This document shows positions 1,835-51,876 of a stretch of DNA of 64,000 nt, piece after piece. This stretch comes from Macrocystis pyrifera (taxonomy: Eukaryota > Sar > Phaeophyceae > Laminariales > Laminariaceae): the NCBI GenBank assembly GCA_031763025.1, contig JASSKH010000014.1, positions 13,632,022 through 13,696,021 of the forward strand, written 5' to 3'. Under the pieces are notes generated by a model, which was not told the DNA's origin, did not search any database, and was given only the letters and a program-made list of their open reading frames with translations. The translations under genes were made by a program, and so were the position numbers. Position 1 is the first letter of the stretch. Each line of letters starts with the position of its first letter.

Positions 1835-2795
1835 TCACGATCCGTATACGGCGTTCCGTGCTGTAGTGTAGCGGGGGCGGGGTTGGAGGTCGATCTTGAT
1901 CGGGCCGGGGTCGTCCAGGAACCGGACGATGTAGGAGCTTCCCGGTGAAGACTCCGGCGGAGTTCCCGAAGAGGCGTCAGGGGGTGAGCTGTGGGCGACC
2001 TTGCCCAGCCACCAAAGGCCGTCGCGCGCCTTGTACCATATGTGTGCTCCGGAGGGTAGGATGGTGGTGCTGAAGTTGTGGAGCCAAAGGCTGCGGGAGA
2101 CCAAGGCGTAGCCTGGGGCGAGGAAGATTTGTCCTTGAGATCGGGCCAGTTCGCGGTGAGCGGCGCCGATGCGCATCTGGTGGTAGAGGCGGTTCGTCTG
2201 GCGGTGCTGGGTTGGTGATCGTGACCAGTAAAGTAGGATGTGGCGCCGGAAGTGTCGAAGGTCCAGCTCGCGTTCCCACGAGGGGCTGAGAAGTCCAGTC
2301 CAGTGAGTCTCGTACAGAACGGCGATGACCCCGCCGCGGCCGCGTACGAGTTGATGGCCAGTGATCTGCTCGACCTCGAGGCGTTCCGGTGGAGGAGTGA
2401 CGTCGTCGACGGTGACGTGGTAAGGGGGGGACTCGGCGGCAGAAGCTGTGAGCACGTATGTAGTAAGGTCCGCGGGCAGATGCTTGGGGATGTCGCTGGT
2501 GTCGTCGGGGTTCCGGCAAGGTTTGCATCGTTGGACGGAGACGCGTGGTTTGGAGTCCCGTCCCGGGAGGTCGGATGGAAGGTCGAGGAAAAATAGCTTG
2601 TCGTGAAGGGGGCGATTGTCGGGGGTGTTTGAGGCGGGCGTCGGCCCTACGGCGAGGACCTTGAAGGGGCCATTCCAGTTCAGGGAAAGCTTCGTCTTGA
2701 GGACGGTTGCGTCGGTGCCCTTTTTGACGCCTTGGCGGATGGTTGAGGCGGAGTTGTAGACCCAAACCCAGCCGCCTACGGTGAAGGGGGGGGGA
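1835..2795 (-). pseudogene. Integrase C-terminus, chromodomain and WW-rich terminal domain (gypsy)
   Basis: From about 2790 the frame holds the integrase C-terminal barrel (VLKTKLSLNWNGPFKVLAVGP). A chromodomain-like segment follows at about 2380-2225: LEVEQITGHQ, then VLYETHWTGL and SWERELDL. From about 2050 lies a second small domain with HIWYKARDGLWWLGK and YIVRFLDDPGPIK, resembling Tudor/agenet barrels. The chromodomain would direct integration to marked chromatin. The TGA at 1835-1837 follows YGS, and 33 more codons are open to about 1737, so the stop may be a mutated TGG. Confidence 0.7.
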
Positions 2796-2797: not shown

Positions 2798-3283
2798 CTA
2801 GGAGGGCGGCCATGATGGGCGCATTGCGGCGCTGAGGACGCGAGACGGTGAGTCGGTGTAGTTCGCGGACGAGGGAATAGGCGCGTCGTTGTCGGTCGGT
2901 GGCGAGGTTGATGTAAACCAGGTGATCGCGGTCCAGGCTTTGGTGACCGCCGATATTGTCGGGTTCGAAGACTGAGAGCGGGAGGCGAGGAAGGCGGCCC
3001 ATGTGGATTTCGTTAGGTGCAAGCCCTGTGGCGGCGTTCACGGAATTGTTGTAGGCCGACGACACGTGTGGGAGCAGCACGTCCCAGTCGGTCTGCTGTT
3101 CGTTGCCAACCATAGAGAGCATTTGGGCCAGTACGTGGTTGACGCGCTCGATGCCGCCGTTGGTGCAGGGGTGGTAGGAGCTGGTGTTGACCTTGTGGAT
3201 GCCAAGGCGTTCGTAGACGATGTTCGCAAGCTTGGAGGTGAAGTGTAGTCCGTTGTCGGAGAGAAGTTTATCCGGGCACCCCC
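2798..3283 (-). pseudogene. Integrase core, second half (gypsy)
   Basis: The frame continues the core with the second catalytic Asp (DNGLHFTSKL) and the third-residue region (HPCTNGGIERVNH, the Glu before RVNH). DWDVLLPHVSSAYNNSVNAATGLAPNEIHMGRLP then follows, which is diagnostic of Ty3/gypsy integrases. No ATG is needed because this is internal polyprotein sequence. It ends at a G homopolymer (2787-2793), where the frame moves to that of the C-terminal segment. Confidence 0.75.
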
Positions 3284-4017
3284 CAGAGAGGGATGTACTC
3301 GTTCAGGAAGATGTCGGCAGTGCCGGCGGCCGTGAACTGCGCCGCTGAAACGGCATACATATCGGCGCGGCGGCTGAAGCGGACTGTGAAGAGGAGGATG
3401 TGGACGTTCCCGCGCGGCGTGAGCGGCAGGGGCCCGAAGCAGTCGACGCTGACGGTGATGCCAGGCCCGTTGGGCAAAGGAAGAGAAAGGATGGGCCAAC
3501 GAATGGTGTGCCGGGAGGTCTTCCGCGCCTGGCATTGAAGGCAACGGCGGATCCACCAGCGGACGGAAGCGTCCATGCCAATCCACCAAAAGAAACGTGC
3601 CAACATGCTGACCGTTCGGGTGACTCCCAGGTGTAGAGAGGTGGTGGCGTGGCATGTGTTCAGCACCCAAAGGCGCATTAACATTGGCACGTAGACGCGT
3701 GGGGTAGAGGGGGCGGGTGGTGGTAGGCTGTTCCCGGATGAGGTTGTGGGTGGTCGTTGGACCAGGAGGGTGGTTTCGTCGTCGGTACGGTGTAGCTTGC
3801 TTTTGGAGGACGTCCGAAAGTTGTGGGCGCCGGGCCGGGGGGATGAAGTCCAGGAGGTCGTGCGGCGTGGGGCTGGGGGAGTCCAACGACAGGAAGCGGA
3901 TGGTGGCGCAGCACAGGGGCTCCGCGCGTTTTTCTCGCGCCCAGTTTTTTTTTTAGGTGTAGTGCTCGACGCAGGCGAGGAGGTAGGGGTCGTCATCGGG
4001 TTCGACGACGGGCTCAA
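3268..4017 (-). pseudogene. Integrase N-terminal zinc domain and first part of core (gypsy)
   Basis: After a Pro/Ser-rich start the frame gives the H2C2 zinc domain (HLGVTRTVSMLARFFWW then CLQCQARK) at about residues 130-165. The start of the catalytic core follows, with the first Asp in ITVSVDCFGPLPLTPRGN, continuing to FLNEYIPLWGVPG. The frame is broken at the C run near 3285-3293, where the expected reading moves to the frame of the next segment. Integrase would insert the element's cDNA into the genome. Confidence 0.75.
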
Positions 4018-4828
4018 GATGGGGCACTACCGGTGGTGTTGGTGCCGGCGGAGAGGGCATTGTTGAGGGTGTCGTTCTTTGCGTAGTGGGCGCCAATGGC
4101 TTGGGTGGCGGTCGGCGTCCTAACCGGTAGTCGGCTGTAGGCCGAGGGAGTCCCGCGGCAGCGGCGACGCGATGGCGGGTCCGAGAAGATATCAGACCTG
4201 GAAGGGCTGGTGTCGTGGCGCCAATGGTGGGCGGCGGAGAGACGACGGACGGCATGGAAGCCGAGCCTGGAGGAGCTCCGGTGTTCACGGCGGCATTCTC
4301 GGTGCCGGCAAGCTGTCCGGTGGTGGAGTCGCGGGTCGCAATAGGCCTGAGGAAGGTGTGGGTTGCGGGGGAAAGGGTGGGGTGCTCCATACGTGGTCCG
4401 AGTAGGCGAAAGTCGCGGAAGTCGTCGTCGGTGAAGGGGAGCGGCTGGACGGTTGGGATGGGTCCGGAAGGGGGGGACACGAGCCCACCCAAGCCGATAC
4501 CCGGGGTGGAAGGGTCGTTCGGCGCGAAGCCGCAGGGGCGGATGAGGTAGATGCCGACGGTGTCGGGGGGCCAGTGCGGCGGTTGCGTCCGGTGCGGTCG
4601 GCGTCGGTGGCTGGTTGGGGAAACAAGGAGAGAAAGTCGGCGTTGCCGTTGGCCGTGCCCTTCCGGTACTCCAGCGTGTAGGTGTACGCTGAAAGGAGCT
4701 TGAGCCGTTGGGCTGTCCGGGGGTACGGTGATCTTGAACGGCATGAGCGGGCACGAGCCGAACTCAGTCTTGGTGGTGGAGAAGACGTCCTGGAATTCGC
4801 AGAGGACGTTTCCCAGGTTGTTGATCAC
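3953..4828 (-). pseudogene. RT remnant fused to RNase H tail and post-RNase H spacer (gypsy)
   Basis: The segment opens with NNLGNVLCEFQDVFS and MPFKITVPPDSP, which is the entry into the RT domain. Near 4697-4705 the sequence jumps, one base out of frame, to YTLEYRKGTANGNADFLS, the last residues of a Ty3/gypsy RNase H. All RT motifs (including the YxDD box) and most of RNase H are therefore missing. A second frame change at the G run near 4563-4568 leads into GIYLIRPCGF and PLPFTDDDFRDFRLLGPRM, the spacer before integrase. This copy cannot make functional RT. Confidence 0.75.
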
Positions 4829-4837
4829 CGACGGGGT

Positions 4838-5242
4838 TCATCTAGAACCGTGCAGGTCGAAGTTGACGTCGCGTAGGTGTAACGGCAGACGTTCCCAGAG
4901 GTCGAGGAAGCTTTCCCGTTGGTCGGCGTTGAGGCGTGCAAGGAGTTGTGGGTACGGGGCTTTTGGTGCGGTAGGAGGGTCATCTGTCGATGGGCTCTGG
5001 TGGGCCACGGGAATGTTGTCGTGGAGGGCATGTACATCCGGAATTTGAGGGGGGTGGGGAGGGGCCAAGGAAGGGTGTCCAAGGGTGGAAAGTGGTACCT
5101 GTACCAGTGGGGAGCAGGAGGTTCCGAGGAGGTCGCCCGGCTCGAGATCGGTAGATCCAGATAGTGGGACCGTTAGGTATTCGTCGGAGACGAAAATGGC
5201 CGGGTCGGACAGGGGGTTCTCGCGGGGGAGCATGTTCACCAT
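4838..5242 (-). pseudogene. Protease-RT connector (gypsy polyprotein)
   Basis: About 134 codons in the same frame as the protease. The Pro-rich N-terminal part is followed by the motif LLARLNADQRESFLDLWERLP, the helical segment that precedes RT in Ty3/gypsy polyproteins of this type. The frame ends at a TGA (4838-4840) directly after GSR, but reading resumes in the same frame (TPSVINNLG), so the stop looks like a point mutation of a TGG tryptophan codon rather than a real terminus. Confidence 0.55.
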
Positions 5243-5425
5243 GTAGTTCCCGGTAAATGCTGGAGCGCCTGACTGACGCGCCAGGTTGACCTTGACGAGC
5301 TTCGGGGTGGAGGAAAGCGAAATAGCTTTAAGCCGGCGAATCGGAGGGGGTAGACGTCGTCAGTGGAACGATCGTTGGAAATGAATGCAGAGGCTCCGTT
5401 GGGGTCATGGTGGTTCAAGGAGAGC

Positions 5426-6226
5426 TCACCGCGGGTTCGCCGGGTAGGTTGGTGGGGGGGGGGTGGGCTGTTGCTGGAGCGTGGTATACGAGCGTTGCTC
5501 GAAGCGCATCCAGCTGTCTCGTCCCAGAAGGATGGGGTGCTGCATGGTTCCTGCAGGAACTACGCAGGCCCATACTGCCAGGGCAGGGGTGGGGGACTGG
5601 AGGCGCCTAAACTGGATGCTTAAGCGGATGGAGACGGAGGTGGAAAGGGGGGCTGAAGTGCCGAAACCTCCCCATGAACGGGGGGAACTGTGCCGTTCGC
5701 ACGCATCGGTGGCTGCCTGGGAAGCCTTCAGTTGTTCCACCGCGGTTGCGGTGATAAACGACTGGGGCGAGCCGGTATCGAGCAGTGCCACGAGTTCGCG
5801 GCGCGTAGTGGCGGTGGGGCCGCTGTGCACGAGTACTTTCGTCGTGAACGACGCGTCGTCGACGGTAATGATGCCGCTTGTAAGGTATGGTCCGTGTTCC
5901 GGTATCGGCGGGCGGCGGGTAGGGAGGTGGCTGTGACTTGCGGTGTTGATGGTGGACACTTGGGCAAAGTGGCTGCTGGGGTAGGCGTCGGGGGTAGACG
6001 GCGGTAGGAGTGGCCCAAGTGGAGAGGTAGGCGGTTGCCATGGAGGGGTCCGGCTTGTTTCGTGGATGCCGTCGGTTGTGGGGAGACCCGGGTGGAGTCG
6101 GTGGGGGCGGGTGTTCGCTCGGGGTCGTGAAGATGGGGAGGAAATGGAGGCTGGGCGGAGCAATTGGCGCCGAGGCTTTCTCGAACGTCCATTAGTATCC
6201 TGCCCAGCAGATTCCGACCACGCCAA
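5426..6226 (-). CDS. Retroviral-type aspartic protease segment (gypsy element)
   Basis: The catalytic motif LVALLDTGSPQSFIT lies at about residues 146-159 (D150, nucleotides near 5779). The flap-side motif ILLGRDSWMRF follows about 85 residues later, as expected for a pepsin-like retropepsin monomer. The first 100 residues are Pro-rich linker, so the ATG at 6226 is not a true start; the segment continues from the NADAR part after a frame change. The enzyme would cut the Gag-Pol polyprotein inside particles. A G homopolymer at 5455-5464 lies at its 3' side, near where the frame is lost. Confidence 0.8.
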   Translation of the reverse strand: MAWSESAGQDTNGRSRKPRRQLLRPASISSPSSRPRANTRPHRLHPGLPTTDGIHETSRTPPWQPPTSPLGPLLPPSTPDAYPSSHFAQVSTINTASHSHLPTRRPPIPEHGPYLTSGIITVDDASFTTKVLVHSGPTATTRRELVALLDTGSPQSFITATAVEQLKASQAATDACERHSSPRSWGGFGTSAPLSTSVSIRLSIQFRRLQSPTPALAVWACVVPAGTMQHPILLGRDSWMRFEQRSYTTLQQQPTPPPPTYPANPR

Positions 6227-6912
6227 CGCGTCGGGTCGCAGGCGTCCGGATGGTCGGCCTTGAAGACTATGCCCCAGATGAGGTCGTGTGGGCTGTCCTC
6301 AGCGATGTGCTTGTCGCCGGTTGCTATTAGCTCCTCCCGTAGCTCCGGGTGTTGGCGGAACTTGGAGAAGTTAATGTAGAGGGCGATGGTGTAGCGGTGT
6401 CGCTCCCAGACCATTTCGTCGAAGTCGGAAACGGTTCGCCCAAGTGCTTTTTGGCGGGCTGGGTCGCGGGTCGCTTTGATGCGGCGCTCAGTTGTGATGT
6501 CCCCGAAGAGCGCGGCCTTCTGCGCCATCATCATCTGCTCAGCGCAGTTGTATGTGACGCCATCGTGTTCGATGTCGCACAGGTACCACTGCGAAAAGAC
6601 CGAAGAGGAGTCCCAGAAGAAGTGGAAAGATGAAGCGGCCTCGGCGGTGACGTGTGCAGTTGATGGCATCTTTTGTGTCGGGGGTGGGGGGCGACGATAA
6701 TCTTTCCTATCGCCGCCTGGCGTCGACGGAGGTAGAGTCAGCAACGATCGAGCGGTGCTGGCCGGAACCCTCGTGTTCGCGGGGGAATTGCTCGGCAAAG
6801 CCGAGGTACCGGGGCGGTCCTCGCCGGGGCTTATAAGCCGGGCGGGACGACCCTCAAGCGCCCTATCGTCCAACTTTTGGAGAACAGGGGCATACTCGCT
6901 AGGGGATGCCAC
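5728..6912 (-). CDS. NADAR (YbiA/DUF1768-like) domain segment of gypsy polyprotein
   Basis: Residues about 96-247 (nucleotides about 6627-6172) match the NADAR fold: an aromatic start (FHFFWDSSSVFSQWY), the helix with the family Glu (NCAEQMMMAQKA, E125), DPARQKALGR, the KF.QHPELREELIATG segment, SPHDLIWG with D210 and W213, and the C-terminal RNLLGRILMDVRESL. From family knowledge, NADAR proteins are N-glycosidase-type enzymes acting on riboflavin intermediates (YbiA) or removing ADP-ribose from guanine. All motifs I can recall are present and the roughly 150 codons contain no stop, although the element around them is broken. Residues 1-95 are Pro/Ser-rich linker. Past about 6130 the frame is a shadow of the protease frame. 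A role in the element's life cycle is inference. Confidence 0.8.
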   Translation of the reverse strand: MASPSEYAPVLQKLDDRALEGRPARLISPGEDRPGTSALPSNSPANTRVPASTARSLLTLPPSTPGGDRKDYRRPPPPTQKMPSTAHVTAEAASSFHFFWDSSSVFSQWYLCDIEHDGVTYNCAEQMMMAQKAALFGDITTERRIKATRDPARQKALGRTVSDFDEMVWERHRYTIALYINFSKFRQHPELREELIATGDKHIAEDSPHDLIWGIVFKADHPDACDPTRWRGRNLLGRILMDVRESLGANCSAQPPFPPHLHDPERTPAPTDSTRVSPQPTASTKQAGPLHGNRLPLHLGHSYRRLPPTPTPAATLPKCPPSTPQVTATSLPAARRYRNTDHTLQAASLPSTTRRSRRKYSCTAAPPPLRAANSWHCSIPARPSRLSPQPRWNN

Positions 6913-6970
6913 ACCTGGGGTCCGTGTCCACGCTTTGCGCGAAGCAGGCGAGGAGGACGGGTCAGGGGGC

Positions 6971-7477
6971 TCAGGGCAGACCCTGGTCGACGTTGGTCGC
7001 GAGTCTTCCGTATTTAAAACGGGACTGTCCCTCGAGGCTCAGGGACAGCGGTGGTGTCAACACCGTGGCAGCTGGAGGAAGCCCGTCGTTCGCGGGTTCA
7101 ACGCTGTCACAAGAAATACGCGCATATTGGAACAAGCGCGTATGGAGCGGCCAATATGAGGCAGGCTCAGGGGGCGGTGGCCCGGTAGACGAAACAGTAG
7201 TTTCGTGTGAACCGGAACCGCTGGCAGCCGTAATCGTCGAGACGTTTCCCAGGGTAGCAATGTCTGGGGTCTCGGCAATAGTCGGCAAGCAGCGTTGCTC
7301 ACCGCCAGAAGACGTCGAGTGGAGCATCCCGGTGGGGCTCGGCGTCTTGGCCTCCTCCCGCCCACACCTCAAGGCAATCACTTGGGCAAGATGATCAGTG
7401 CTTGAACAAGTGGCTGTGAAATGGGCTGGGGTAGGGGGGGGGCATTGGGGGGCAGGGGTCGGGTAGGCGTGGTGCAC
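6971..7477 (-). pseudogene. Gag-to-NADAR linker segment (gypsy element)
   Basis: 168 codons in the same frame as the gag start and the protease. The sequence is rich in Pro, Ser and Thr with no recognised domain, and probably formed the spacer of the polyprotein between the basic gag tail and the NADAR domain. It begins just after the homopolymer frameshift near 7440 and ends at a stop at 6971, after which the coding frame shifts again toward the NADAR segment. I assign no function. Confidence 0.35.
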
Positions 7478-8741
7478 GTGATTTACTCGTGCGTCCTGGG
7501 AGCCTCGGGTGCTCGCAGTAGATGCTGTTGGTGGAGATGCGACAGTTGCTCCACCATCGGCTTGTCCGTTGGTGCGGAAGGTGCCCGGCTGCCGTTGGTT
7601 CGGGTGGGTACTTCGAGTTGGTGCTGCCCATCCGCATGTTCGCGGGGGCGGCAGGTGCGGAAGTATTGGTCGCGGGGCTATGCACCGTCAATGCTGAAGA
7701 CGAGGGGGCAGGCTCGGTGCGTTGTCGATGTAACTGTTGCCCTGGCGACTGTCGGTTGCCGTTGTCGTATGACCGGCCGTTGTTGTGGCGCCAGTTGTCG
7801 GAGCGCCCGTTGTTGCCGCGGTAGTTGCGGGAGTGGTTCTGGTTGGAGCGGTTGCTGTTGTAGTTTCCGCTGCGGTTGTTGTTGTTGTTGTTGCCTCGAC
7901 GGTTGCTGTTGTCGTAGCGGTTGGAGTTTCGCTCCAGGTTGTGTTCGTAGTGTCCACGGCGATATAAGAGGATCCTCTGCTGCCATTGGCGGTAGGCGTG
8001 TCCGGCTACCGGGCTGAGGATGCCGAACGTGTTGCGAAGCGCAGGGGGCAGGTCTTCATACTATGTCCGTGCCATTGCAGTTGGGGCAGTGGTCACCGTG
8101 AGCTCGTAGGGCTTGGGCGTGGGATACCACGACGTTCCGCCTCCGTCGTGGGCTCCGTGTTGGCTCTCGTCATCAGGCTGCTGTGCTCCGTGTTGGCTCT
8201 CGTCATCAGACTGCGCGCTCGTGAGGAGCGGGGCGCTGTCGTCGTAGGGGGCGGCGCTGTTGAGGTGGGAAGGGGCGGTGTCGCCGGCGATGGCATGTCC
8301 GTCGTGGGGCGGGTGGTTGAGGGTGTCGGGGGAGCGGGTCGAGACGGTTGGGTTCCACACGTAGCCGCGGCCGGCGTTCGAGTGAAAATACCGTGGCTCG
8401 AGTAAACGGGTATGGGCGGCCCCGATGAACTCGGAAGAAACACCCTCGGTGGCGGCGCGGGCCAGAACGAAAGTGATCGACGGGTTACAGTCGGGTGTGA
8501 AGAGCTGCCATACACGGTGTACCTCTAGCGAGACATCCGAGACCGTCGCGTCGCGTGTACTCTGCATCCAGCGGAGCTTAGCGTCGAGGAAGACCCAGTC
8601 ATTGGGCTCAAAGCCGAACGTCTGCGGGTGCCGGTGCCCAGTGGGTATGGGGGCTGGCAAGGGTTGGGCCGGTAGTGGTGCCTGGGACATTATGGTCCCA
8701 GTTTGGTTTTTGGGAGGCTGGGAGGTGGTGGTCCTAGACAT
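7395..8741 (-). pseudogene. Gag central and C-terminal part, interrupted by one TAG
   Basis: One minus-strand frame stays open from 8741 to 7395 except for a single TAG at 8061-8063. The first 226 codons are globular (tryptophans and aromatic residues near residues 30-110), then Ser/Asp/His-rich. After the TAG the frame continues with YEDLPPALRNTF and then a long Asn/Arg/Ser-rich basic tail (about 7960-7740), typical of an RNA-binding gag C-terminus without zinc knuckles. The frame is lost at the G/C homopolymer at 7434-7442. The function, capsid and nucleocapsid, is inferred from position and composition. Confidence 0.5.
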
Positions 8742-9244
8742 CGCGGCGGACGTATAGGGTGCCCATGGTGAGGAGCGAACGGCTGCGATTGGGCCGTGGT
8801 GGCCGCGGTCGCAGCTGTAGTCCCATAGGTGGAGTCGAAAGGGTTCGAGTAAGGGGTGGGGGACGGCGGTAACACGAGTAGGAGGTCAGCGCCCTCTTTC
8901 GCGAGAAGGAGGAGCTGCTCGTGGTGGGCTTTGAGGGCCGCACGGCGCTCACGGAGGGCCGTGGGATCGCCTTGGTAACGCCCCGGATTGAGAGCCAGGG
9001 TGGAGGTTTCCTGTGCAGAGACCTCCGGGTTGATGGTAGGCCCGGCACTGGTCGTGCCTGCTCCCATTGGAGAAGATCCCGGTGTGGTGGGGTGTAGCGT
9101 GAAGTCGCTCAGAATGGTTTCGAAGCCAGGGGTGTCGTCGTCGGTAGCGCGAAAGGCCCTTGCGGCATACCTCGCCTCGCGGGGGTTGGTGGCGTCGGGG
9201 GAGTGGGCGCCGGGAATGTTGGTGGAGGAAGCTTTCTCGGCCAT
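8690..9244 (-). pseudogene. Gag N-terminal part (gypsy element)
   Basis: The frame opens with ATG at 9244 and gives about 160 plausible residues before a frameshift near 8750-8790. Its middle (about residues 90-120) is a charged, probably helical stretch (LRERRAALKAHHEQLLLLA) followed by Pro-rich sequence. There is no recognised domain. I call it gag from its position upstream of protease and because it shares its frame with protease and with the RT remnant. The first ATG after the leader is the natural start. Sequence after about residue 160 in this frame is out of register. Confidence 0.5.
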
Positions 9245-9337
9245 GTTTAGGCGGGTGGAACGCTTGCACTGGGGCGGGAAAAGGTTTGGTGGAAGATGGA
9301 GAGGGCGGGTGGATCCAGGCTTGGATCAGGGTAGGCG

Positions 9338-9352: not shown

Positions 9353-10437
9353 AACCGATCTAGGAGAGAGAAAGGAGTGACGGTAAGGACGTACGATAGG
9401 GGGTGTTGAGGTTGTGCGTGCCACGATTTTAGTGCCCGTCGAAGGATATTTTTATAGTTGAGGGCATCTAACTAGCGCCAGGCGCCTCGCGTTTGATTGA
9501 CGGTAGTCGCGCCGGGGTCACTCAAGTGATATCAGTTGAACAGAATTGAACATAACTCCGTCTGAAATGCCCAAAGTTCGTAATGATAACAGGGCGTGAC
9601 GCTTACTGAGCGTGGGCAGTGCAAGACCTTTCGTTGGGATACAAATAAGAGTACCCGTAAAGAAAATGTGAAGGTCGAGTCGGGGAAAAAAAAATGCAGC
9701 ATGCCGGCACTATTTAGTAGCTGCACAGAATATCGGGCGATTCCCTAAACGGTGGGCAGCTTGTCGTTCCGTGGCAAAACAGACAGCAACCGGTGCATTT
9801 TCGGGGCGTCGCGAGGTCCGATACGATGTGAGATACGTAGGGCATCGTAGAAGTAGCACTAGTGGGAAACAAAAATAAATAACTAGACCCCGGTACGTAA
9901 AAATGTGGAAAAGGGTATCATTCGGCTCCTGCGGGGAGGTCCAATACTCTAATCCGCCGCGAAAAATTGTATATTATTTTGATTAATTTGGCCAGCATTT
10001 AGTTAATCTCTTTGGAACTGGTCACTGCCCGGGCCACAGTTATTATGTTCCATATATGAGCAGCAGGCAGCTGCTGTTTTTGTGAGAAGCTGGACAAACA
10101 AGGGATAGACATATGATATGTTACTCGTTGGTGTAGCCTTTGTACTGTTACAGTTCTAGGCAGCCTGTACCCTGCATATTTGTAAGAGCGGGTGGGGATG
10201 GGATACGCTGGAAAATAACACTTGTTACAAACTCGAACAGTGTCTACCCTGCTTTGGCTTAAAAGTCGGGAAAAAAAAGAAAAAAAGGAAAAAACAAAAG
10301 ACGAAAGCGAAACGGGAAAGGGAGAGAAAACAAACACGCTCTACTCATATCACATTCAGCACAAATGTTGTGCATGATGCATCGCAGATATGACTACTGC
10401 AGGTATTGCTGAGGTCGCGCCTCATTACCACCAACTA
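9353..10437. other. Non-coding stretch; possible site of the gypsy 5' LTR
   Basis: I see no protein-coding signal. A 5' LTR of the minus-strand gypsy element would be expected here, but no direct repeat with the 1-1.7 kb region was recognised. The exception is an exact 18-base match, CTCTACTCATATCACATT, at 139-156 and about 10338-10355. An A/G-rich run lies at 10270-10330. Confidence 0.4.
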
Positions 10438-11285
10438 CTAGTAGTTGTAGTCGTAGTATTAATATTAATAGTAGCCCATGTGTACCGAGTGCATGCCGCC
10501 TCTACAAATGCCCATCCAACAGCAGTAGTGGTACCTGTACTATAAGTAGTAGCAATAGTCGTAGTCGTTGTGGTGTCCGCTATTGTGTATGCTGCTTCTA
10601 CCTGGCCAATACGTAGCAGTAGTAGAGACCCTCAAGCGGATTCGTAGGCGGCACATTTACAAAATCTGAATAGTAATAGTAGTAGTCGTAGCAGTATAGT
10701 ATTTTGTAACGTGCATGCTGCTTCTACCTCTAATACAGTGCATCTATCTGCGTAGTAGTGGTAGTGGTGTATGTTAAGAGTAACATCAGTATATATAATA
10801 GTCATGCTTCCAACCCATGGTACCGCTTGCATTCTACGTTGCCGTTGTATGAAAGTTATTACTATAGTAGCAGTAGTAGTACTCGTAGTAGGTAGTAGTG
10901 TAGTATTTATTCATGCTGCTTCTACCTGTACTGCATCTACGTATTACTGGCAGCGGTGTAAAGCGTAACAGTATAGTAGTCACGCCCCAACCCTTGGTGC
11001 CACGTGGTTATTTGACCGCTCTATTTACCACGAGGTTGTCTGTAGTGTATGAGGGATTGGTCATGCTCTAGCAGTAGTACTTAGTAGTAGTATAGTTGGT
11101 AGTCGTAGTAGTATAGTGTACCGGGTAGTATTTCGTAGAGAACATGCTCCTTCTACCTGTACTGCATCTGCGTAGTAGTGGTAGTGGTGTATTGTAACGG
11201 TAAGGTAGTCAGCCATGGTACCGCGTGCATGTAGTAGTGTGGTATCCACCACAGAAAGAGTAGTACTCAGGTCCTGCTGACTACC
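10438..11285. repeat. Degenerate TAG-rich long tandem repeat
   Basis: A motif close to CATGCTGCTTCTACCT recurs near 10492, 10591, 10714, 10913 and 11138. It is followed in the better copies by a GTAGTAGTGGTAGTGGTGTA-like stretch, a conserved CCATGGTACCG or similar, and then TAGTAG microsatellite filler. The last units are about 200-225 bases apart. The frames across it are short and no gene is evident. Confidence 0.65.
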
Positions 11286-16191: not shown

Positions 16192-16447
16192 TGTTCGTTT
16201 GGATCGTTCCAGCAGCGACGGTTACAAGTTGTAGAGGGTTGCGTATATCTTCGCAGGCGTTATTATGAATTTTGCCGATTGTTCACGAGGAGAGATTGTT
16301 CACTCCGTTCTCTGCTCCGTTCTCTGCTCCGAGCTACGAGCTAGGCTCCGCTCTCTCTCCCCTCCTCTGTCCTCAAATACAACGACTATAAAGAAACTCC
16401 TCAGAGCACGTGGTGGTCAGGGCATCCCGGCTTGGACTCTACGAACA
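16192..16447 (+). repeat. 5' LTR of copia element A
   Basis: 256 bp, ends TGTTCG...CGAACA. It contains a tandem TTCTCTGCTCCG duplication, then a CTCC/TCTC-rich stretch, and a TATAAAG-like site near 16386. It differs from the 3' LTR at several scattered positions. Confidence 0.9.
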
Positions 16448-16465
16448 CACTAGCGTCTTGAACGT

Positions 16466-17803
16466 TTGAGGTCTGGTACAAAAAGCCCACGATGCCCTCG
16501 AAGGGATCGGCTCAAGAAGAGCACGATTCTCCGAGTGACGTTAAAAAACGCTGCGACGCGAGATCAAGCTGGCGTGGAGCAGAGGCAAGCATCGATGATG
16601 GATGCCGTGAGGAGCATGATGGCCGAGCTCATGAGGAACAACGGTCGAACGGAGCCAGGCAGCGCTGAAGGCAGCGTTGCTGTAGGAGAGAGTCCAGCAG
16701 AGGTAGGAACCACTGCTGTAGGGGAAAGCCCAAGAGGGGCAGTACCCACTGCTGAAGTACGAGAGACTACTGCTGCTGTTGAAGCAGGCATTGGTCGATC
16801 GGAGTCCGGCAGCGCTGAGGGTAGTGCTGCTGTAGGGGAGAGCCCACAAGGGGCAGTACCCAATGCTGTGAGAGAGATCCCTGCTGCTGTAGGCATGGCA
16901 AGGGATATTGCAGCAGAACAAGAGACAAATTTGAGTGAGGGCGCCTCGCCAGATTTGGGAACAACTGGACGCGGAAGAACTGTGTTGCCTGTCGAGGTTG
17001 GCACACCGAGGGGTCAGCCAGACCAGCATGGGACGACAGGAGGATGGGGTGCGGTGAGTTGGGTGGTGGATTTGATCTGCCTCTATCGCGCCATTTGGCC
17101 TTCAAACACACTCCTGTGCCATCGTGTAGTGAGCTAAAATCTGAGTTCAACCCCTGGACAAGAGACGCTCGGTATTACGCCAAAAGAGTTGGTTTCTTGT
17201 CTGCTTTCGTATCGGATCCACCGCAGTACATTCCCGTAGGGGAATTAGACACCGAAAACTCGATGCTTGTCGCAAGGGGGTTTAACCGCGAAAGTGTGCA
17301 CAGACATACACTGGGCGTGGAAGTTCCTGTCGACGGCCCTCAAGAGCAAGAGCGATAAAAGTATTTTACACCGGTGTACCTCGCCGAGGCAAGCGTGGGA
17401 CGCTCTCCTTGCGTAGTGCGGCCCTCAGACGACGGGGGCCAAATCAGACCTCTCCCGACGCCTTAACAGTTTTAAGATGGCGCCGGGGAGCAACCCGCTC
17501 GAGGAGATGGGCAGGATCGAGGATCTTGCCGCGGAAATTCGAACAGCAGGAATGTCAGTAGACGACCACATGCTGTACACCATCTTTATTGACGCTCTGC
17601 CTGCCGAATACGAAGTGGAGGCTCGGAACCTGGCATCACGTGACAGCATCGGCCGTGATGACATCATCAAGGCTGTTCGAGAACGGCATCAACGACTTTC
17701 TGGAAACAAGAAGAAGGGGTCCAACGCTGGCCACGCAGACCATGCTATGTACGCTGGCAGCGGCGGCGGGTGGCGGTGGTCGCGAGAAAGGTGGAGGAAG
17801 TAG
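16466..17803 (+). pseudogene. Copia A gag (capsid region), frameshifted
   Basis: The N-terminal portion (16466-17137) includes a Ser/Gly/Ala-rich repeat region with AVGESPQGAVPTA-like units. The capsid portion follows in other frames: FNPWTRDARYYAK...GFLSAFVSDPPQYIPVG near 17148-17250, and MGRIEDLAAEIRTAGMSVDDHMLYTIFIDALPAEYE from about 17507. This is the copia-type UBN2 gag fold (the 'lhdqlLyttfI..LP.eye' region). Element B shows the same protein read more continuously from an ATG at 50246, so the matching start here is probably the ATG near 16490. At least two frameshifts separate the pieces. Confidence 0.75.
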
Positions 17804-18338
17804 CAAAGAAAAAGGTGGACGACGGGGTCTCGGACGAGGCCGTAGAGGCACCAACGAGGACGGTGGTGGCTCGGCCGCGGCTGCTGGTGGCAATGGCAGC
17901 AACGTCAAAGCCGCCAGCGGAAGTACTCCAGTGGGCAAGTGTCATAGGTGTGGCAAGAAGGGCCATTGGAGGAGCGAGTGCACGGCGAAGCTATGCAGTC
18001 GATGCCAGGGACCCGGGCACTCTGCCGATGCCTGTCCCACGTCCACGGATCGATGCAGTCGATGCAACGGGCTGGGGCACGCTGCTGATGTCTGCCCCTC
18101 ATCGAAAGAAGAAGCTGTCATGGCGGTGACGAGCAAGGATGGGGCAAGGGACGACGACCAAGAAAAAGGTACGGTCCAGGCCTCAGCTTTCAAGGCCGAA
18201 GAGACAGGCAAGTGGAGCGATGGTTCGGGGGAAGGGGAGTCTGCTTGGCAGGTAGGAGACGAGGCTTGGACATGTGATAGTGGTGCGTCTACTCACATGA
18301 TGCCCTCCCCTGATTGCATCATCAACTATAGAGAATGA
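17589..18338 (+). pseudogene. Copia A nucleocapsid (three zinc knuckles) and start of protease
   Basis: After out-of-frame gag sequence, this frame gives a Gly-rich linker and three consecutive CCHC knuckles at about 17940-18105: CHRCGKKGHWRSEC, CSRCQGPGHSADAC and CSRCNGLGHAADVC. Three knuckles are more than the usual one or two in copia elements. The aspartic protease motif WTCDSGASTHMM lies near 18269-18304. The frame ends in TGA at 18336-18338 after NYRE and continues in frame with NLTLRIADGS, so the stop replaces a residue expected to be Trp. Confidence 0.8.
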
Positions 18339-18341
18339 AAC

Positions 18342-18890
18342 TTGACTCTCCGAATCGCTGACGGATCCACCCGAGCGATTGAAGGTTACGGTGACGTGAG
18401 CGTTGTCTTTCGGTCCGGAAACGGTCCCGTGCAAGTGCTGCTTACGAACGTTGCCCACGTGCCGGATCTCCGCTACCACTTATTTTCCCTGCCCACTCTC
18501 GTCAAAAACGGCCATACTTTCGAAGGGCACCCCACGGGGGTTGCAGTCAGGCTCAAGTCAGAGCGTTCGATCGTGTTTCCGTTGAGTGGGACCCTCTATA
18601 GCCTGTACGGCTACCAGGTCGACTGCAGTTGTGGGGGAAATGCCTGTGCTGTACTCGCCCCGGGGCAACTGCTCAACAAGTCTGCGATAAACATCAACGA
18701 TTTCCATTGCGCTGCTGGACACTCCCACAAGGTGCTACTTCGCAAGACCGCGGAGCAGCAAGGGATTGTCCTTGAGGGAGAGCTGCTGGAGTGCAAAGGG
18801 TGCTCCATGGCAAAGGGTCTCCGCAAAGGTATCAAGCAGTCCACACACACACGAGCAGATAGGAAGCTCGGGAGGGTTTTGTGGATTTGA
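18342..18890 (+). pseudogene. Copia A protease remainder and GAG_pre-integrase domain
   Basis: LTLRIADGSTRAIEGYGDV and VLLTNVAHVPDLRYHLFSLPTL are the standard second half of a copia protease domain. The pre-integrase zinc domain follows, with FHCAAGHSH and CKGCSMAKGLRK. The frame slips by one base near 18875, just before the integrase core (VDLSGP). Together with the preceding and following segments it would be a single Pol polyprotein. Confidence 0.8.
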
Positions 18891-19654
18891 GTGGACCAAA
18901 GGTGGTAGAGTCTCTCGGGCGGAAGCGGTATACTCTCATCGTGCGCGACGATTTTTCACGATATACGTGGGTGTACTTTATGCGCCACAGGTCGGACGCC
19001 GCGGAAATGTTCGAACAGTTCCTTGCGGATTCTCGTGCAGACGGTGTCCCTTCTACGGTGGTAATTGTCCGATCTGATGGGGGTGATGAATTCCGCGGGA
19101 GAAAGTTTGGCGACCTGTGTAGATCACGAGGGATCAAGCAGGAATTCACGACGGCCGACAGTCCCCAATTCAATGAAGTAGCAGAGCGCGCGCTAGGTTT
19201 GATAGAGACGGCCGCAATGGCGGGCCGAATCCAGGCTCAAGGACGTTTTCCTGGCGCGAAACTCCCGGCCACGACGTCGTTGTGGGCGGAAGCGTCCCAC
19301 TGGGCGTGTGACGCCTTGAACCGCACAGAAACAACAGCTAACCCGCAGAGCAAGTCGCCGCATGAGATGTGGCATGGTAGCCCCCCCCCGGTAGTACTAC
19401 TGCCCTTCCTCAAGCCTGGCTACTGCAAGGTGAAGAGGGAAAACAAGTCACAGGTCAAAGCGCAAGAGTGCTTTTACCTTGGCCCTGCAACAAACAACCC
19501 CCGAGACTCAGTACGAGTGCTGACAAAGAAACGCACTGTGCTAATAACGCGCAATGTCACCTGGCAACGCGTGTGTCGCCTACACCACCTGTACCTGCCG
19601 AGGCGAATCACTCCCTGTCTACGGAAAAGGGGGGGTCAGAGGCAGACGACGTGA
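18881..19654 (+). pseudogene. Copia A integrase core
   Basis: The three catalytic residues are visible: Asp in VDLSGP (18884), Asp in VRSDGGDEF (19076) and Glu in NEVAERA (19184). The last two are 36 residues apart, giving the DX35E signature. SPHEMWHG and CFYLGPA are typical copia integrase C-terminal motifs. The first codon of the frame is GTG and is not a translation start, since this is internal polyprotein. After about 19580 the coding frame shifts to that of the spacer. Confidence 0.85.
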
Positions 19655-20574
19655 GCACGTCGGATCGAGGTGGTGGGGGGGTAGTGGATGAGCTGGACGA
19701 CGGCCTGGCTCACTTGAACGACCTCGACGTGACGTGGGGTTTTGACCTGGACACGTTTATGCTGGAGCGCGCACAGCAGGCACCTGCCGCCGGCGAGGCC
19801 GGCGGCGAAACACCCGAGACGATGGGTTCATCTCAAGGGGGTGCCGTGGACGCCTCCTCGGTTCCGGCAGGGAGGGCCGAAACACCCGAGACGATGGGTT
19901 CGCCTCAAGGGGGTGGTGTGGACGCCTCCTCGGTCCCGGCAGGGAGGGACGAAACACCCGAGACGATGGGTTCGTCTCAAGGGGGCGCCGTGGACGCCTC
20001 CTCGGTCCCGGCAGGGAGGTCTGAAACACCCGAGACGATGGGTTCGTCTCAAGGGGGCGCCGTAGACGCCTCCTCCTCGGTCCCGGCAGGGAGGGCCGAA
20101 ACAGCCGCGACGATGGATTCGTCTCAAGGGGGCGCCGTGGACGCCTCCTCGGTCCCGGCAGGGAGGGCCGGAAGCCACCCGGACACAGCATCAGCCTCCG
20201 ACACCGTCCAAGGGAACGGTGAGGATCTCCCCGCGGTCCTGTCGGGAAGGACAGCACACGAGCTCAGCAGCTGGGGCTGGCTCCCCCCGATACTACGGGG
20301 CCGGACCCGGGGTCAGAGCCAACGCCTGGAGGGTGAACCTGCCGTGCACCAGGGAAGGATGGATGAAGGAGCCGCTGACGCGCTGCTTGCGGCAGCGTAC
20401 GAGTCGTGGACGAAGGCTGGGAGTATGCTGAATCGTACGTCCTGGACGATGAAGAACGCAGTGGCTTTGATGACCGGAGGACCTGCTGTGGAGAACAAAG
20501 GGAAGTTGAGCGTGTGCATGCCGAGTGGTTTCCCGGAAGACGTAGAACCGCCCCCACAGTCCGTAGCAGTGTAG
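19468..20574 (+). pseudogene. Copia A integrase-RT spacer with 24-residue repeats
   Basis: From about 19570 this frame carries the acidic spacer between integrase and RT. Residues about 113-235 are five tandem copies of a 24-residue unit containing ETPETMGSSQGGAVDASS followed by VPAGRA. Downstream, EAADALLAAAYESW and SVCMPSGFPEDVEPP look like the beginning of the segment before RT. The coding sequence then stops at 20572-20574, close to the RT deletion. The repeats are low-complexity linker without an assigned function. Confidence 0.65.
19803..20172 (+). repeat. 72-bp tandem repeat inside copia A pol
   Basis: Five units beginning near GAAACACCCGAGACGATGGG are arranged head to tail. Most differ by only a few bases, and one carries an extra TCC codon. 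The length divisible by three preserves the frame. Confidence 0.85.
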
Positions 20575-20587
20575 GTCTGACCCGTGT

Positions 20588-21591
20588 GTGCTTCGCATGG
20601 TTGTGGACGGCAAGGTAGAACTGATCATTGCCGTTCATGTAGATGACATCATGATCGCAGGATCGGATGACACATGCAGAGATTTCCATGCCGCGCTAGC
20701 TATGAAATTTCCCACGAATAACCTCGGCGAACTGACTTGGTACATTGTTTGTGTTTCAAACGCGACTGGGGACTGGGGACATTGAAGATTACGCAGAAGG
20801 CGTTCATTGAGAGCATGCTGAATCGTTTTGGTGTTAACGCATCCTCTGATATCCCCGCAACCCCCGGTGTGGAACTAGGTACAAGAGAGGAGGGCGAACT
20901 TGGAGGAGACTGGCCGTACAGGGAGGCTATGGGCAGCTTGATGTGGCTGTCGACCATGACGAGGCCGGACATCTCGAACGCTGTGCGTGCTGTGGCGCGC
21001 CGCTCCCACAACCCAACGGAGAGGCACTGGAAGGCAGTTTTGAAGACTATGGTTTACCTCCACGGGACCAGGTTTATGGGATTGACTTTTGTACGGGGCT
21101 CAGGTGTGGATTTGACTGCGTATAGTGATGCTGATTATGCTGATAAGTCGAACGATAGGCGCTCGGTATCGGGGACGGTAATTACCCTAGGGGGTGCGGC
21201 CGTCAGTTGGGTAAGTAGCACGCAGAGGTGTGATACGTTGTCGACAGCAGAAGCAGAGTATGTCGCCCTGGGTGAAGGGGTGAATGCAGCTTTGTTTACG
21301 GCCGCGGTGTTGTCGTTTATCTGTCCTGAGCTAAGCGGATCATGTGTCCGGGTTTTCGAGGATAACCAGGGGGCCATAGCGTTCGCTGAAAACCCTCTTA
21401 GTTCTGCTCGGAGTAAGCATATCGACGTGCGGTTTCATTTTGTCAGAGAGCTACTTCGTGCTAAGAAGATCGACATTCAGTTCGTAGTTTCGGAAGAGCA
21501 GCACGCGGACATTTTGACGAGATCCCTTGCTGCGACCCCTTTTAAGTCTCACCGTAGGTTCTTGTTGAATCTGCCTTTGGAGGGTGAGTAA
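20588..21591 (+). pseudogene. Copia A RT C-terminal part and RNase H
   Basis: The segment starts inside RT at LRMVVDGKVELIIAVHVDDIMIAG, where HVDD is the catalytic box (usually YVDD). It continues KFPTNNLGELTWY, then shifts frame near 20745 to LTMTRPDISNAVRAVAR. A complete copia RNase H follows: YSDADYADKSNDRRSVSG, STAEAEYVALGEGV, VFEDNQGAIA and SKHIDVRFHFVRE. The stop at 21589-21591 after LPLEGE is probably the true end of Pol. The RT sequence upstream of HVDD, including the first catalytic Asp, is absent. Confidence 0.85.
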
Positions 21592-21906
21592 GGGGGTATG
21601 AGCATTATTCGATGAGTACCATTTTTGAGTGATGCGAGGAATAATTTGTCAGGTCGCCAACCCTGCGCTACTTTGAGGGGCATGGGGGAGTAGGGCACCG
21701 CTTGGCTTTTTATTTTCTGGCCATGGTCATCGTTTGGAATGCGGCCGTTGTTTCAATTGCAATGGTTTGGAGTATATGTGTTATACAGGGGATTTTGACC
21801 CGGTGGCCGGGTTTCCTCCTGCGGGACTGTCGTTGGCTGTTCTTAGGTCCTAGCAAGTCTTGAATGTCTTTTCGGTCTAATCACTACTGTGAAGAGCCAG
21901 GGAGGG

Positions 21907-22162
21907 TGTTCGTTTAGATCGTTCCAGCAGCGACGGTTACAAGTTGTAGAGGGTTGCGTATATCTTCGCAGGCGTTCTTATGAATTATGCCGTGTGTTCA
22001 CGAGGATAGTTTGAGCACTCCGTTCTCTGCTCCGTTCTCTGCTCCGAGCTACGAGCTAGGCTCCGCTCTCTCTCCCCTCCTCTGTCTTCTAATACAACGA
22101 CTATAACGAAACTCCTCAGAGCACGTGGTGGTCAGGGCATCCCGGCTTGGACTCTACGAACA
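21907..22162 (+). repeat. 3' LTR of copia element A
   Basis: 256 bp with the same termini as the 5' copy. It is preceded by the purine-rich tract GAGCCAGGGAGGG (about 21894-21906), which fits the plus-strand primer for reverse transcription. Confidence 0.9.
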
Positions 22163-36900: not shown

Positions 36901-37797
36901 GGTGCTGGCAATAGAGACGGTAGACAAAATTAACGGGGTAGGGGATAAGCAGCAAGGCGATTTTGTCGACAACCGGCAGAGTGTAGAAGGTCGCCAATCG
37001 TCTGTATCCCAATACACAGGCAAGAAACAGAAATATGGGCTCGGTCTCAAAGTAAAAAGCGCGCCTGAGGCACGACCTGATTGCACTCGCACACGGTGTG
37101 CACTCCATGGAAATCTTGTCGCCTCTATTTCTAGTAGGCTCTTTCATCTTGTGGAACTCATCCTCGGTACGATGTGCCACACGCTGGAGAGAACGCTCTT
37201 GCCTGAAGTCATGCTAGTACAACCCAACGGATCGCCGTGCTTGCGAAGATAGCACGCTTGCACTACTTCTCGATCTCCATCGGCCCAACGGATGCCTACT
37301 CTTTGGCTCACTTTCTCGCCATACATACCCTCAAAAGTAGAAATTCATTAAGTGGCCAGGGTGGTCTGCTTATCTATGACCTTGTACGCTGGGGACGATT
37401 ACGGGCCCAACGATAGAAAATGACGTACCAGGTACGTACTAGCTAGACGATCATCACATGGGCAGGGCGCATGGAATTTTTCATGTACCACTTACCGCAA
37501 CGCTCTCCCGTGGAAAGGATAAGAGATGACCTTCGCCAATGTTGTCCGCCACGAACTTGACCCCCGCGATGCGCACGTGAGCCTGCTCTATGTGCGTAGC
37601 AATATTTCTGTCTACTGCACAGCACCGTGTGGTAGTGGCAAGGAACAACGGCAGCAGATGGCACGAAAGCGGGATTGTGGGTGTCATTGCGCCAACTTGT
37701 AGCTACGGGCGAAGGGTCAAGGACATACGACGTGGGATAGAGAATTTCAAGAGCTACCCTACTAGCCTAATTTGACACGCATCGCATCTGTTCCGGA
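33945..37797. other. Long stretch without recognised gene or element
   Basis: Frames reach 126 codons (37180-36800 minus) but show no family motifs, and both strands are similarly open. C runs occur at 35078-35092 and 36768-36778. Two copies of a CCCC...CCACTGGCAAGA motif lie at 36476 and 36765. I could not find promoters or RNAs I would defend. Confidence 0.4.
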
Positions 37798-38284
37798 TGT
37801 TATGGAATGTTAGCACATGGCCATGTATGAGTCAATGTTCAAGTAGCACCGCTCTTGTGTCGTAGATCATAGTCTATGTACCGTTTCGGCTTGTAACGTA
37901 TATTATGCGGAGGAATAGCAGCCGTATCGTCCCTGCTCGTAGGACTGAGTATCGCAGCCGTATCGTCTCTGCTCGTAGGACCGAGTATCTCACTCTCTTT
38001 GGATGCTCTCTGATGTGACCTTTATCCGGATCGTGATGGTATCCTAGCTGCCTATCCATCTCTGGAAGCTGCCGTCGTCTGGACTCTTGCATTCTCTGTG
38101 GAGTACATCTGTGTGTGTTGGCCATCTAAGCGCCAGTGTTTACGTGTTATCACGTCTTCTTCTCTCTACAGCACGGGAGTATCTTACTCCCCGGGCCATC
38201 GCTAGCCCGGTGTCATATCTCGGGTAACACCGAGGACACAGCCTCTGTCTACATTGCCAGGGTACAACGCAATTATCCATATTT
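37798..38284 (+). repeat. 5' LTR of copia element D
   Basis: Matches 44288-44774 except for single-base changes near 37877, 37968 and 38013 and the last few bases. It contains a direct repeat of the form GTATCGCAGCCGTATCGTC and a palindromic GGGCCATCGCTAGCCCGG near its 3' part. Confidence 0.9.
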
Positions 38285-39163
38285 GGTTAATGAGCCTCGC
38301 GTTGTGCGTGTAGTGAACACACACCTCTTCTCTGCGGAGGTTTCTTCTGCTGGAGGGAGCTTTCTGCTGGAGGTCTACATTGAGTCAACCCGTCTGCTGT
38401 TGGATCCGGACTGATCACCTTCTCGGCTGCACATTCGGTACGCTACTGCTGTGTGTAAAGCATTCGGGGGTACAACTTCTAGGCGTTGATTCAGGTCGGC
38501 GAATAGAGTTGTGCAGGGTTGTTGGTTCGCATGTGCAGAGTACCGTTCAGGTATTCTGGGTCTGTGTAATTGACTTCTCGAAATCACCTGCGCGTGTCGT
38601 ATCGCGAGGTGTAGTCTGTCCAAGATACCTTCTAGCTGCTGGGTGCCGACTCAGTAGCGTGTGTAAGGGTGAGGATCTGGCTTGGCTGGGTGCATCCGTT
38701 GTGGCAGCCTCATCAAATAAATATAACGTGCTCCACGTTTCCTGCGCGTGCGTCGTCACGCGAGGTAGGGTTTACATCCAAGACTACCTTCTCGTACCGG
38801 TTTTTGGTGCGTGCGTAAGGTTGCGGATTCGACCTGTCTGAGCAGTGCATCTGACCCGTGTGACTGCAGGACATGGCCGGAGTTGACACCTCCGACGCCA
38901 TACACCGCAGCCTAGTCATCTGTGGTAGGTTATTTCTGTGTCTCCCGGAGCATAGGAGTCTGGGCGGATACTGGTGAGTGTCCGGCGGACAAGGGTTGTG
39001 AGCTCCAGGGCTGCAATCCTGAAAAGCCTACATCCGTGTAGCAACAAGATCTTGCACCGTCCCTTGCGCGTCGAGATACTCAGGTACTCGGGGCGTTACG
39101 CGTGTGAGGAAAGCCTACGCGCCTTGAGCGTAGCCCCGTTCCCTGGAAAATGATCGGGAGGCG
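38285..39163 (+). other. Long leader of copia element D with an internal duplication
   Basis: About 880 bases separate the 5' LTR from the gag ATG. CCTGCGCGTGTCGTATCGCGAGGT...CCAAGATACCTTCT (38589-38632) recurs as CCTGCGCGTGCGTCGTCACGCGAGGT...CCAAGACTACCTTCT (38740-38790), so the leader carries an old duplication of about 150 bp. TGGTTAATGAGCC at the LTR boundary may be the primer site. Short frames here are not credible genes. Confidence 0.6.
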
Positions 39164-43732: not shown

Positions 43733-43904
43733 ATCTCGAACCAAGCACATTGCACTCCGTTACTTCTACATTCGCGAGCTGGTATCCGAGGGGAAGATTT
43801 CGACTCACTACATCTCCACAAAGGACAACCCCGCCGATAGCGGGACCAAGCATTTTGCTGAGCCGCGTTTCCAACAGCTACTGGACATCATCAGCAGCTT
43901 CTGA
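43608..43904 (+). pseudogene. Copia D RNase H C-terminal part
   Basis: The frame resumes RNase H with MKEAVFCMNMLTELG, HCDNTATLHALGN, RTKHIALRYFYIRELV and STKDNPADSGTKHF, and ends at a stop at 43902-43904. Between PIS of the upstream frame (about 43596) and this segment, the expected STxEAE catalytic stretch is missing. A deletion of roughly 50-65 bases that also changed frame is therefore the simplest reading. RNase H would be inactive. Confidence 0.8.
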
Positions 43905-44287
43905 CGTCAGTATCGTCGTCAACATCTTATGTTATTTGTTTGTGTCATCAACACTGTGTTTGTGTTTGTGTGTTTGTTTTGTGAACCTGTTATTTGTGGA
44001 AATCAGCTTGCTATTTCAATGGTCAACATTCGTCTCGAACCATTACTGGTTGAACGAGACATGTAGGATTGAAGGTTATGGTAAATTTGGTTTGTGCAGG
44101 AACGATAGCAGTACTTTTGCAAGCACATAAATGTATGCACGTAAGGCACAAAGCATTGTTAAAATTGTACTAGTAAACGCATCGAACTACTATATTGCAG
44201 GAAATGGTTTCTTGACTGTTTTCTATTTTATCACTGACTGAAATTGTTTTTCTTGGTTTTATCATCAAATTTCACATTGAGGGGGAG

Positions 44288-44774
44288 TGTTATGGAATGT
44301 TAGCACATGGCCATGTATGAGTCAATGTTCAAGTAGCACCGCTCTTGTGTCGTAGATCATATTCTATGTACCGTTTCGGCTTGTAACGTATATTATGCGG
44401 AGGAATAGCAGCCGTATCGTCCCTGCTCGTAGGACTGAGTATCGCAGCCGTATCGTCTCTGCTAGTAGGACCGAGTATCTCACTCTCTTTGGACGCTCTC
44501 TGATGTGACCTTTATCCGGATCGTGATGGTATCCTAGCTGCCTATCCATCTCTGGAAGCTGCCGTCGTCTGGACTCTTGCATTCTCTGTGGAGTACATCT
44601 GTGTGTGTTGGCCATCTAAGCGCCAGTGTTTACGTGTTATCACGTCTTCTTCTCTCTACAGCACGGGAGTATCTTACTCCCCGGGCCATCGCTAGCCCGG
44701 TGTCATATCTCGGGTAACACCGAGGACACAGCCTCTGTCTACATTGCCAGGGTACAACGCAATTATCCATAATA
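44288..44774 (+). repeat. 3' LTR of copia element D
   Basis: Preceded by the purine tract TTGAGGGGGAG (44277-44287), a classic copia polypurine primer. The end is set by the CCGGA target duplication at 44775-44779. Confidence 0.9.
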
Positions 44775-49955: not shown

Positions 49956-50199
49956 TGTTCGTTTGGATCGTTCCAGCAGCGACGGTTACAAGTTGTAGAG
50001 GGTTGCGTATATCTTCGCAGGCGTTATTATGAATTATGCCGTGTGTTCACGAGGAGAGTTTGAGCACTCCGTTCTCTGCTCCGAGCTACGAGCTAGGCTC
50101 CGCTCTTTCTCCCCTCATCTGTCCTCTAATACAACGACTATAAAGCAACTCATCAGACCACGTGGTGGTCAGGGCATCCAGGCTTGGACTCTACGAACA
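49956..50199 (+). repeat. 5' LTR of copia element B
   Basis: 244 bp with TGTTCG and CGAACA ends. It lacks one 12-bp TTCTCTGCTCCG unit that is duplicated in element A's LTRs. It shares with the 3' remnant the variant CTCTTTCTCCCCTCATCTG and CATCAGACC. Confidence 0.9.
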
Positions 50200-51870: not shown

Positions 51871-51876
51871 CTAGCT

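Follow-up and report, generated by a model that had tools for sequence, protein, structure and literature searches.

What could a retrotransposon gain by removing ADP-ribose? The question is raised by a locus in a 64,000-nucleotide stretch of DNA from the brown alga Macrocystis pyrifera (contig JASSKH010000014.1 of assembly GCA_031763025.1; the whole stretch is referred to as the window). In the window a domain of the NADAR type lies directly upstream of the protease (PR) of a Ty3/gypsy element, and in relatives of the element it forms one predicted protein with PR. The sequence-only reading of the window knew of no described gypsy lineage with this architecture. However, a NADAR-bearing Gypsy lineage of the brown alga Ectocarpus (Gypsy-12_Ec32 and its kin) is already in print, according to the passages used here of PMC12477816 (Genome Biology, 29 September 2025). 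What our analysis adds is a domain that is constrained, catalytically complete and, as judged from the protein alignments, passed on with the protease in diverse relatives.

The domain and the element around it

Read on the minus strand from 6627 to 6172, the DNA encodes 152 residues without a stop (FHFFW...RESL). Frame 1 of the plus strand over the same positions is not open and contains stops. The boundaries originally given for the domain were exact to the base, the strand had been left unstated, and the motifs NCAEQ, SPHDLIWG and RNLLG are all found within the translation, as had been claimed. The profile PF08719 matched residues 140-289 of the surrounding frame with 160.1 bits (cut-off 35.1, E 7.1e-47) and was covered nearly end to end, at profile positions 1-162 of 163; this bears out the identification as NADAR. 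The NCBIfam profile TIGR02464 scored 143.7 bits against a cut-off of 73.7. A phmmer comparison with the solved structures returned two relatives at E ≤ 0.001, 8bau (E 8.8e-17) and 2b3w, which is YbiA (E 1.2e-8). By sequence similarity the domain is a member of the NADAR superfamily, far beyond chance, and its match to 8bau and 2b3w suggests a YbiA-type fold. The structure 8bau, whose database title reads only 'NADAR domain-containing protein', is presumably the Phytophthora nicotianae NADAR of PMC11543638.

Table 1. Features of the NADAR-bearing element in the window
Feature	Positions	Strand	Basis or remark
Gag part, broken frames, Asn/Arg-rich stretch	7395..9325	minus	position and composition only
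436-codon stop-to-stop frame: Pro-rich upstream linker and NADAR	5728..7038	minus	protease in another frame
NADAR domain, YbiA type	6172..6627	minus	PF08719/TIGR02464 profiles, phmmer; catalytic residues present
Retroviral-type aspartic protease (LLDTGSPQSFI ... LLGRDSWMRFE)	5465..5908	minus	other frame than NADAR
Conserved post-protease region	4838..5359	minus	EPGD[LI][LF]G...PL, common to P0131, P0132 and P0163; by eye
Presumed reverse transcriptase N-terminal remnant, core missing	4700..4837	minus	motif
Presumed RNase H C-terminal remnant (YTLEYRKGTANGNADFLS)	4612..4686	minus	motif
Integrase H2C2 zinc finger, PF17921	3514..3690	minus	E 2e-16, 60.3 bits
Presumed integrase core, second half (SDNGLHF ... 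YHPCTNGGIERVN)	3117..3302	minus	motif
Possible C-terminal chromodomain	2222..2377	minus	PF00385 12.3 bits, E 0.17, cut-off 25.1

We took the roles of the individual residues from the work on the P. nicotianae NADAR (PMC11543638). The numbering of the 8bau chain equals that of the paper plus 2, an offset that we inferred and with which every named residue falls on the right letter. The window domain is identical to the P. nicotianae NADAR at E43, K50, K75, R79, W89, R93, E125, D130 and W133, whereas Y84 is replaced by Phe and D86 by Glu. In its translation the catalytic residue set is complete, including the catalytic Glu that the sequence-only reading had named. The E125 position distinguishes the YbiA subfamily, in which it is occupied by Glu instead of Asp or His (PMC11125620, PMC11543638); the window domain has Glu there and is assigned to this subfamily by sequence.

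The minus-strand order of PR (5.5-5.9 kb), the RT and RNase H remnants (4.6-4.8 kb) and the H2C2 finger (3.5-3.7 kb) makes the element a Ty3/gypsy element by its PR-RT-RNaseH-IN arrangement, in which we take the RT, RNase H and integrase core segments to be such from their motifs. Pfam scans gave no match for the RT remnant or for the integrase core. The DTGS motif of the protease lies at 5768-5779; Asp_protease_2 scored 15.3 bits, under its cut-off of 24.3, and the window protease aligns well with the proteases of P0001 and P0002. For gag, the three upstream ORFs scanned had no Pfam match at E ≤ 0.1. The proposed placement of NADAR between gag and protease was confirmed, with gag assigned by position and composition. 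No LTRs flanking the element were found by a direct-repeat search; the best local match between the flanks scored 38 compared to a maximum of 33 in 30 shuffles. A tRNA scan of the window found none. Since the RT core is gone and the frames are broken, the window copy is very probably dead.

The sequence-only reading had also pointed out that the domain has no stop although the copy around it is decayed. In neutral simulations of 4000 runs each, no stop arose in 73% of the runs at 2% nucleotide divergence and in 62% at 3%, with a mean protein difference of 4.6% and 6.8%, respectively. Because most neutral runs at these divergences are equally free of stops, the open frame says little and we reject it as a sign of selection.

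Several other features were observed in the window. Upstream of the element's 5' side, at 10400-11200, there are dense imperfect repeats of the TAG/GTA trinucleotide type, and this stretch includes four CTTCTACCT blocks (10595, 10721, 10919 and 11150). A young copia element on the plus strand spans 37795-44771, with LTR-like direct repeats at 37795-38281 and 44284-44771 that are 99.2% identical. Its gag, zinc knuckle and RVT_2 match Pfam within 39134-43732, its integrase core is weakly matched (17.1 bits, below the cut-off) and its reading frame is broken by a single in-frame TAG at 41246-41248. Two related copia-like elements, recognised by eye, occupy 16192-22162 and 49956-53914; their common pieces are 87-98% identical, some of them inverted, and the former is flanked by repeats at 16192-16447 and 21907-22162 that are 95.3% identical. 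Two overlapping plus-strand frames at 61841-63525, with no Pfam match, look by eye like a reverse transcriptase and RNase H of the DIRS/Ngaro type. At 60479-61283, inside long open frames, a segment of about 400 bases is duplicated in tandem with 91% identity.

Linkage to the protease and constraint in relatives

When the window ORF was used as a protein query and scored on residues 130-300, five proteins were found. Two of them, P0001 and P0002, begin within NADAR and continue through the linker and the protease in one frame. For a second search the query consisted of linker and protease (residues 140-368 of P0001), with NADAR excluded. It returned 79 proteins including the query P0001 and P0002, and in all of them the match takes in the protease, wholly or in part. 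With a NADAR profile made from alignment A1 the domain was detected in 24 of the 79, and the remaining 55 mostly start too near the protease to be informative. Of the proteins with 110 or more residues ahead of the protease, 21 of 21 carry NADAR in the same predicted protein, so the domain is a standing part of the architecture, as had been expected. P0132, P0161 and P0187 hold the whole NADAR and the protease in a single predicted protein. The distance from the end of NADAR to the start of the protease was 56-75 residues in 23 of the 24 NADAR-bearing proteins, the exception being P0199, where NADAR and a protease piece are oddly arranged. No NADAR was found in P0154, which has 108 residues upstream of the protease, and at most a trace in P0139 with 97 residues. 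Among nine NADAR-negative upstream stretches inspected by eye, those of P0166, P0160 and P0188 resemble the end of NADAR and six do not clearly do so. The Pfam NADAR profile matched 13 of 13 proteins scanned, a count that gives weak support because the 13 were chosen from the 24 that were already positive.

In P0001, P0002, P0131, P0167 and P0172, and likewise in P0178, P0180, P0195, P0197 and P0199, the predicted protein begins at one common point within NADAR, at M[M]..K (profile position 32 or 33). This shared internal start may be an effect of the gene caller or of an upstream frame change.

The divergence of the individual parts was compared in the 17 relatives that each cover 85 or more residues of NADAR and 90 or more of the protease (136 pairs). 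Mean identity was highest for the protease (0.54), followed by NADAR (0.49) and the linker (0.35). Pair by pair, NADAR was more similar than the linker in 129 of 135 cases, and the protease more similar than NADAR in 108 of 136. The identities of NADAR and protease correlate with 0.65, a value that none of 2000 permutations reached. A one-off capture is ruled out by this co-divergence together with the linkage in 21 of 21 proteins. Judging by these alignments, NADAR and the protease have been inherited jointly throughout a diverse family of elements.

We then contrasted the column conservation of 21 element NADARs with that of 108 other NADARs, which were assumed to be stand-alone. The Spearman correlation was 0.79 over 121 columns, and 0.73 over 120 columns for the 13 rows found via the protease only, with near-copies thinned. 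In 31 of the 32 columns that are conserved to at least 90% in the other NADARs the majority residue is the same. Six non-element matches (P0118-P0120 and P0122-P0124) were left out of the comparisons, and the 21-row set excludes the fragments P0004, P0010, P0014, P0117, P0121, P0125, P0135, P0147, P0159, P0169, P0175, P0179 and P0199, which enter the wider residue counts only.

At the active site we observed the following counts for the 21 rows: Lys at K50 in all 17 rows that cover the position, Glu at E43 in 7 of 7 and at E125 in 20 of 21, Asp at D130 in 18 of 21 and Trp at W133 in all 21. Arg occupies the R93 position in 14 of the 21 element rows compared to 58 of the 108 other NADARs, and D86 is variable in both. 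With fragments and frame-shifted pieces included, the residue was kept in 12/13 (E43), 24/24 (K50), 24/26 (E125), 21/25 (D130), 25/27 (W133), 23/25 (R79) and 20/24 (W89); copies that lost a key residue number 1 of 13 at E43, 2 of 26 at E125, 4 of 25 at D130, 2 of 25 at R79 and 4 of 24 at W89. Because of the linkage, the conserved catalytic residues, the NADAR-like conservation and the co-divergence with the protease, the element NADAR appears to be kept as an enzyme. We are highly confident of the domain's identity, its active-site residues, its linkage to the protease and its enzyme-like constraint at the protein level.

Origin of the domain and known counterparts

Beyond the element-like proteins the nearest relatives show about 50% identity and, among the best 120 of 123, the named ones are mostly bacterial, one being a Stenotrophomonas phage protein. 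The best match in a prokaryote genome was from Allokutzneria, with 55% identity to P0001. NADAR matches outside Ectocarpus are likewise described as almost only bacterial in the passages used of PMC12477816. In a quick tree of 87 rows, 66 of them from the 108 other NADARs, the element NADARs are split into one group of 7 rows and another of 14. A tree that keeps them in a single clade scores 29 log units higher than the two-group tree and is not rejected (AU p 0.776), and we set two separate captures aside. The sequences are most simply read as one ancient capture, probably from a source of the bacterial type.

We also searched collections of viral and prokaryotic sequences, which may omit records near the window's own genome. 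A search of IMG/VR with the window ORF found no relative. With alignment A2 as the query, the best 80 of 241 IMG/VR relatives were all confined to query residues 1-144, a stretch that covers NADAR and the beginning of the linker, and none extends into the protease; a viral origin of the element is rejected on this ground. The loci from bacterial and archaeal genomes (36 of 36) likewise stay within residues 1-130, and none reaches into the protease.

Compared by its published description, the brown-algal NADAR lineage of PMC12477816 is most likely the one to which the window element belongs. In the passages used, NADAR occupies the N-terminal region of Pol in the Ectocarpus elements, as it does here. 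Gypsy-12_Ec32 is cited there as an example with a C-terminal chromodomain, for which the window has a possible counterpart that scores below the cut-off. The window copy differs from the Ectocarpus lineage in being decayed and without most of RT. Titles and beginnings of abstracts in the open-licence literature gave, among the matches listed, no second report of NADAR in a Gypsy polyprotein.

Other NADARs resemble the window domain in part. The P. nicotianae NADAR (8bau) and E. coli YbiA (2b3w) are kin in sequence and have the catalytic Glu/Lys/Glu set in common with it but, unlike it, stand outside any retrotransposon. According to the part of PMC9503650 used here, positive-strand RNA viruses of animals also embed NADAR in the replication polyprotein of an RNA-based replicator; they differ from the window element in having no reverse transcription or integration, and theirs would be an independent capture. 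The Tx1 LINEs of Crassostrea gigas are likewise retrotransposons with a NADAR, but they are non-LTR elements that carry it in a different protein, ORF1, and the passages used of PMC12477816 call it divergent. With the DarT1-NADAR toxin-antitoxin system (PMC11543638) the likely common ground is the chemistry, guanine de-ADP-ribosylation. That NADAR belongs to the BC4488 subfamily, in which Asp takes the place of E125, whereas the window has Glu, and no toxin partner of this kind was seen in the window.

Possible functions

NADARs strip ADP-ribose from guanine in DNA (PMC11543638) and, according to the part of PMC11833690 used here, from guanosine in RNA, though not from phosphate ends. The counter-defence or repair role put forward by the sequence-only reading, a hypothetical one, fits this known guanine de-ADP-ribosylation (PMC11543638, PMC11833690). 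RNA processing is the role suggested by the authors of PMC12477816 in the passages used.

Our main reading, to which we give a probability of roughly 0.4, is that of a dead Ty3/gypsy copy whose packaged YbiA-type NADAR would free the guanines in the RNA or cDNA of the element from ADP-ribose. The hydrolase domain would probably have been captured once, between gag and protease, and would enter the particle as part of Gag-Pol together with protease, RT and integrase. Situated between loose Pro-rich linkers, it would probably be released by the protease. Within the particle it would act on guanines of the element RNA or the nascent cDNA, and ADP-ribosylated guanines in the template or cDNA could block reverse transcription. 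A host defence ADP-ribosyltransferase might be the source of the ADP-ribose, or it might result from damage of another kind.

Other readings have to be weighed against this. The domain might act on small molecules of the host, either signals derived from ADP-ribose or intermediates of the riboflavin type, and so disarm signalling instead of repairing nucleic acid. TIGR02464, the best NCBIfam match and the top one in 6 of 6 proteins, is indeed named for an N-glycosidase of riboflavin biosynthesis intermediates, and the part of PMC9503650 used here suggests that phage NADARs target mainly soluble ADP-ribose derivatives. Yet the enzyme is located inside Gag-Pol and a metabolic gain for the element would be hard to see, and we consider this reading unlikely. 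The domain could also be kept for binding rather than catalysis, holding ADP-ribose on host chromatin or proteins and aiding targeting or assembly. The largely conserved ADP-ribose contacts agree with this, as does the C-terminal chromodomain of Gypsy-12_Ec32 in the passages used of PMC12477816, to which the 12.3-bit match in the window, below the cut-off, might correspond. A pure binder should, however, tend to lose the catalytic Glu, whereas in the element rows the catalytic K50 and E125 are conserved as much as the pure contacts; a binding role is in our view rather improbable.

The remaining possibility is a neutrally drifting passenger, noticed because the window copy is still without a stop. 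The rest of that copy is dead, and the window domain, which shows 5 differences over 120 aligned residues from P0001, its closest relative, is off-consensus at three columns that are 92-96% conserved in other NADARs. Two of the three residues are found in no other of the 21 element rows; the third, Ala for Val, recurs in two of them. Against drift stand the presence of NADAR in every informative protease relative, the congruent divergence and the enzyme-like conservation at a mean identity of 49%. Such a conservation pattern is predicted by a working enzyme seen partly through decayed copies and not by a passenger, and we consider the neutral reading largely refuted and very improbable.

A stronger claim than our main reading, that the element's guanine de-ADP-ribosylase undoes the action of a host ADP-ribosyltransferase (ART) on its RNA or cDNA and hence is an anti-defence enzyme, is doubtful at present. 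We know of no host ART acting on the element, and the sole literature match for ADP-ribosyltransferase and Ectocarpus concerns PARPs, as far as the part of that record used here goes. The anti-defence reading has parallels in the NADARs of RNA virus polyproteins and oyster Tx1 LINEs. If true, it would mean that these hosts defend themselves against retroelements by a form of ADP-ribosylation not yet described. Should a host defence ADP-ribosylate the RNA or cDNA of retroelements, a conflict of the bacterial style would extend to eukaryotic transposons.
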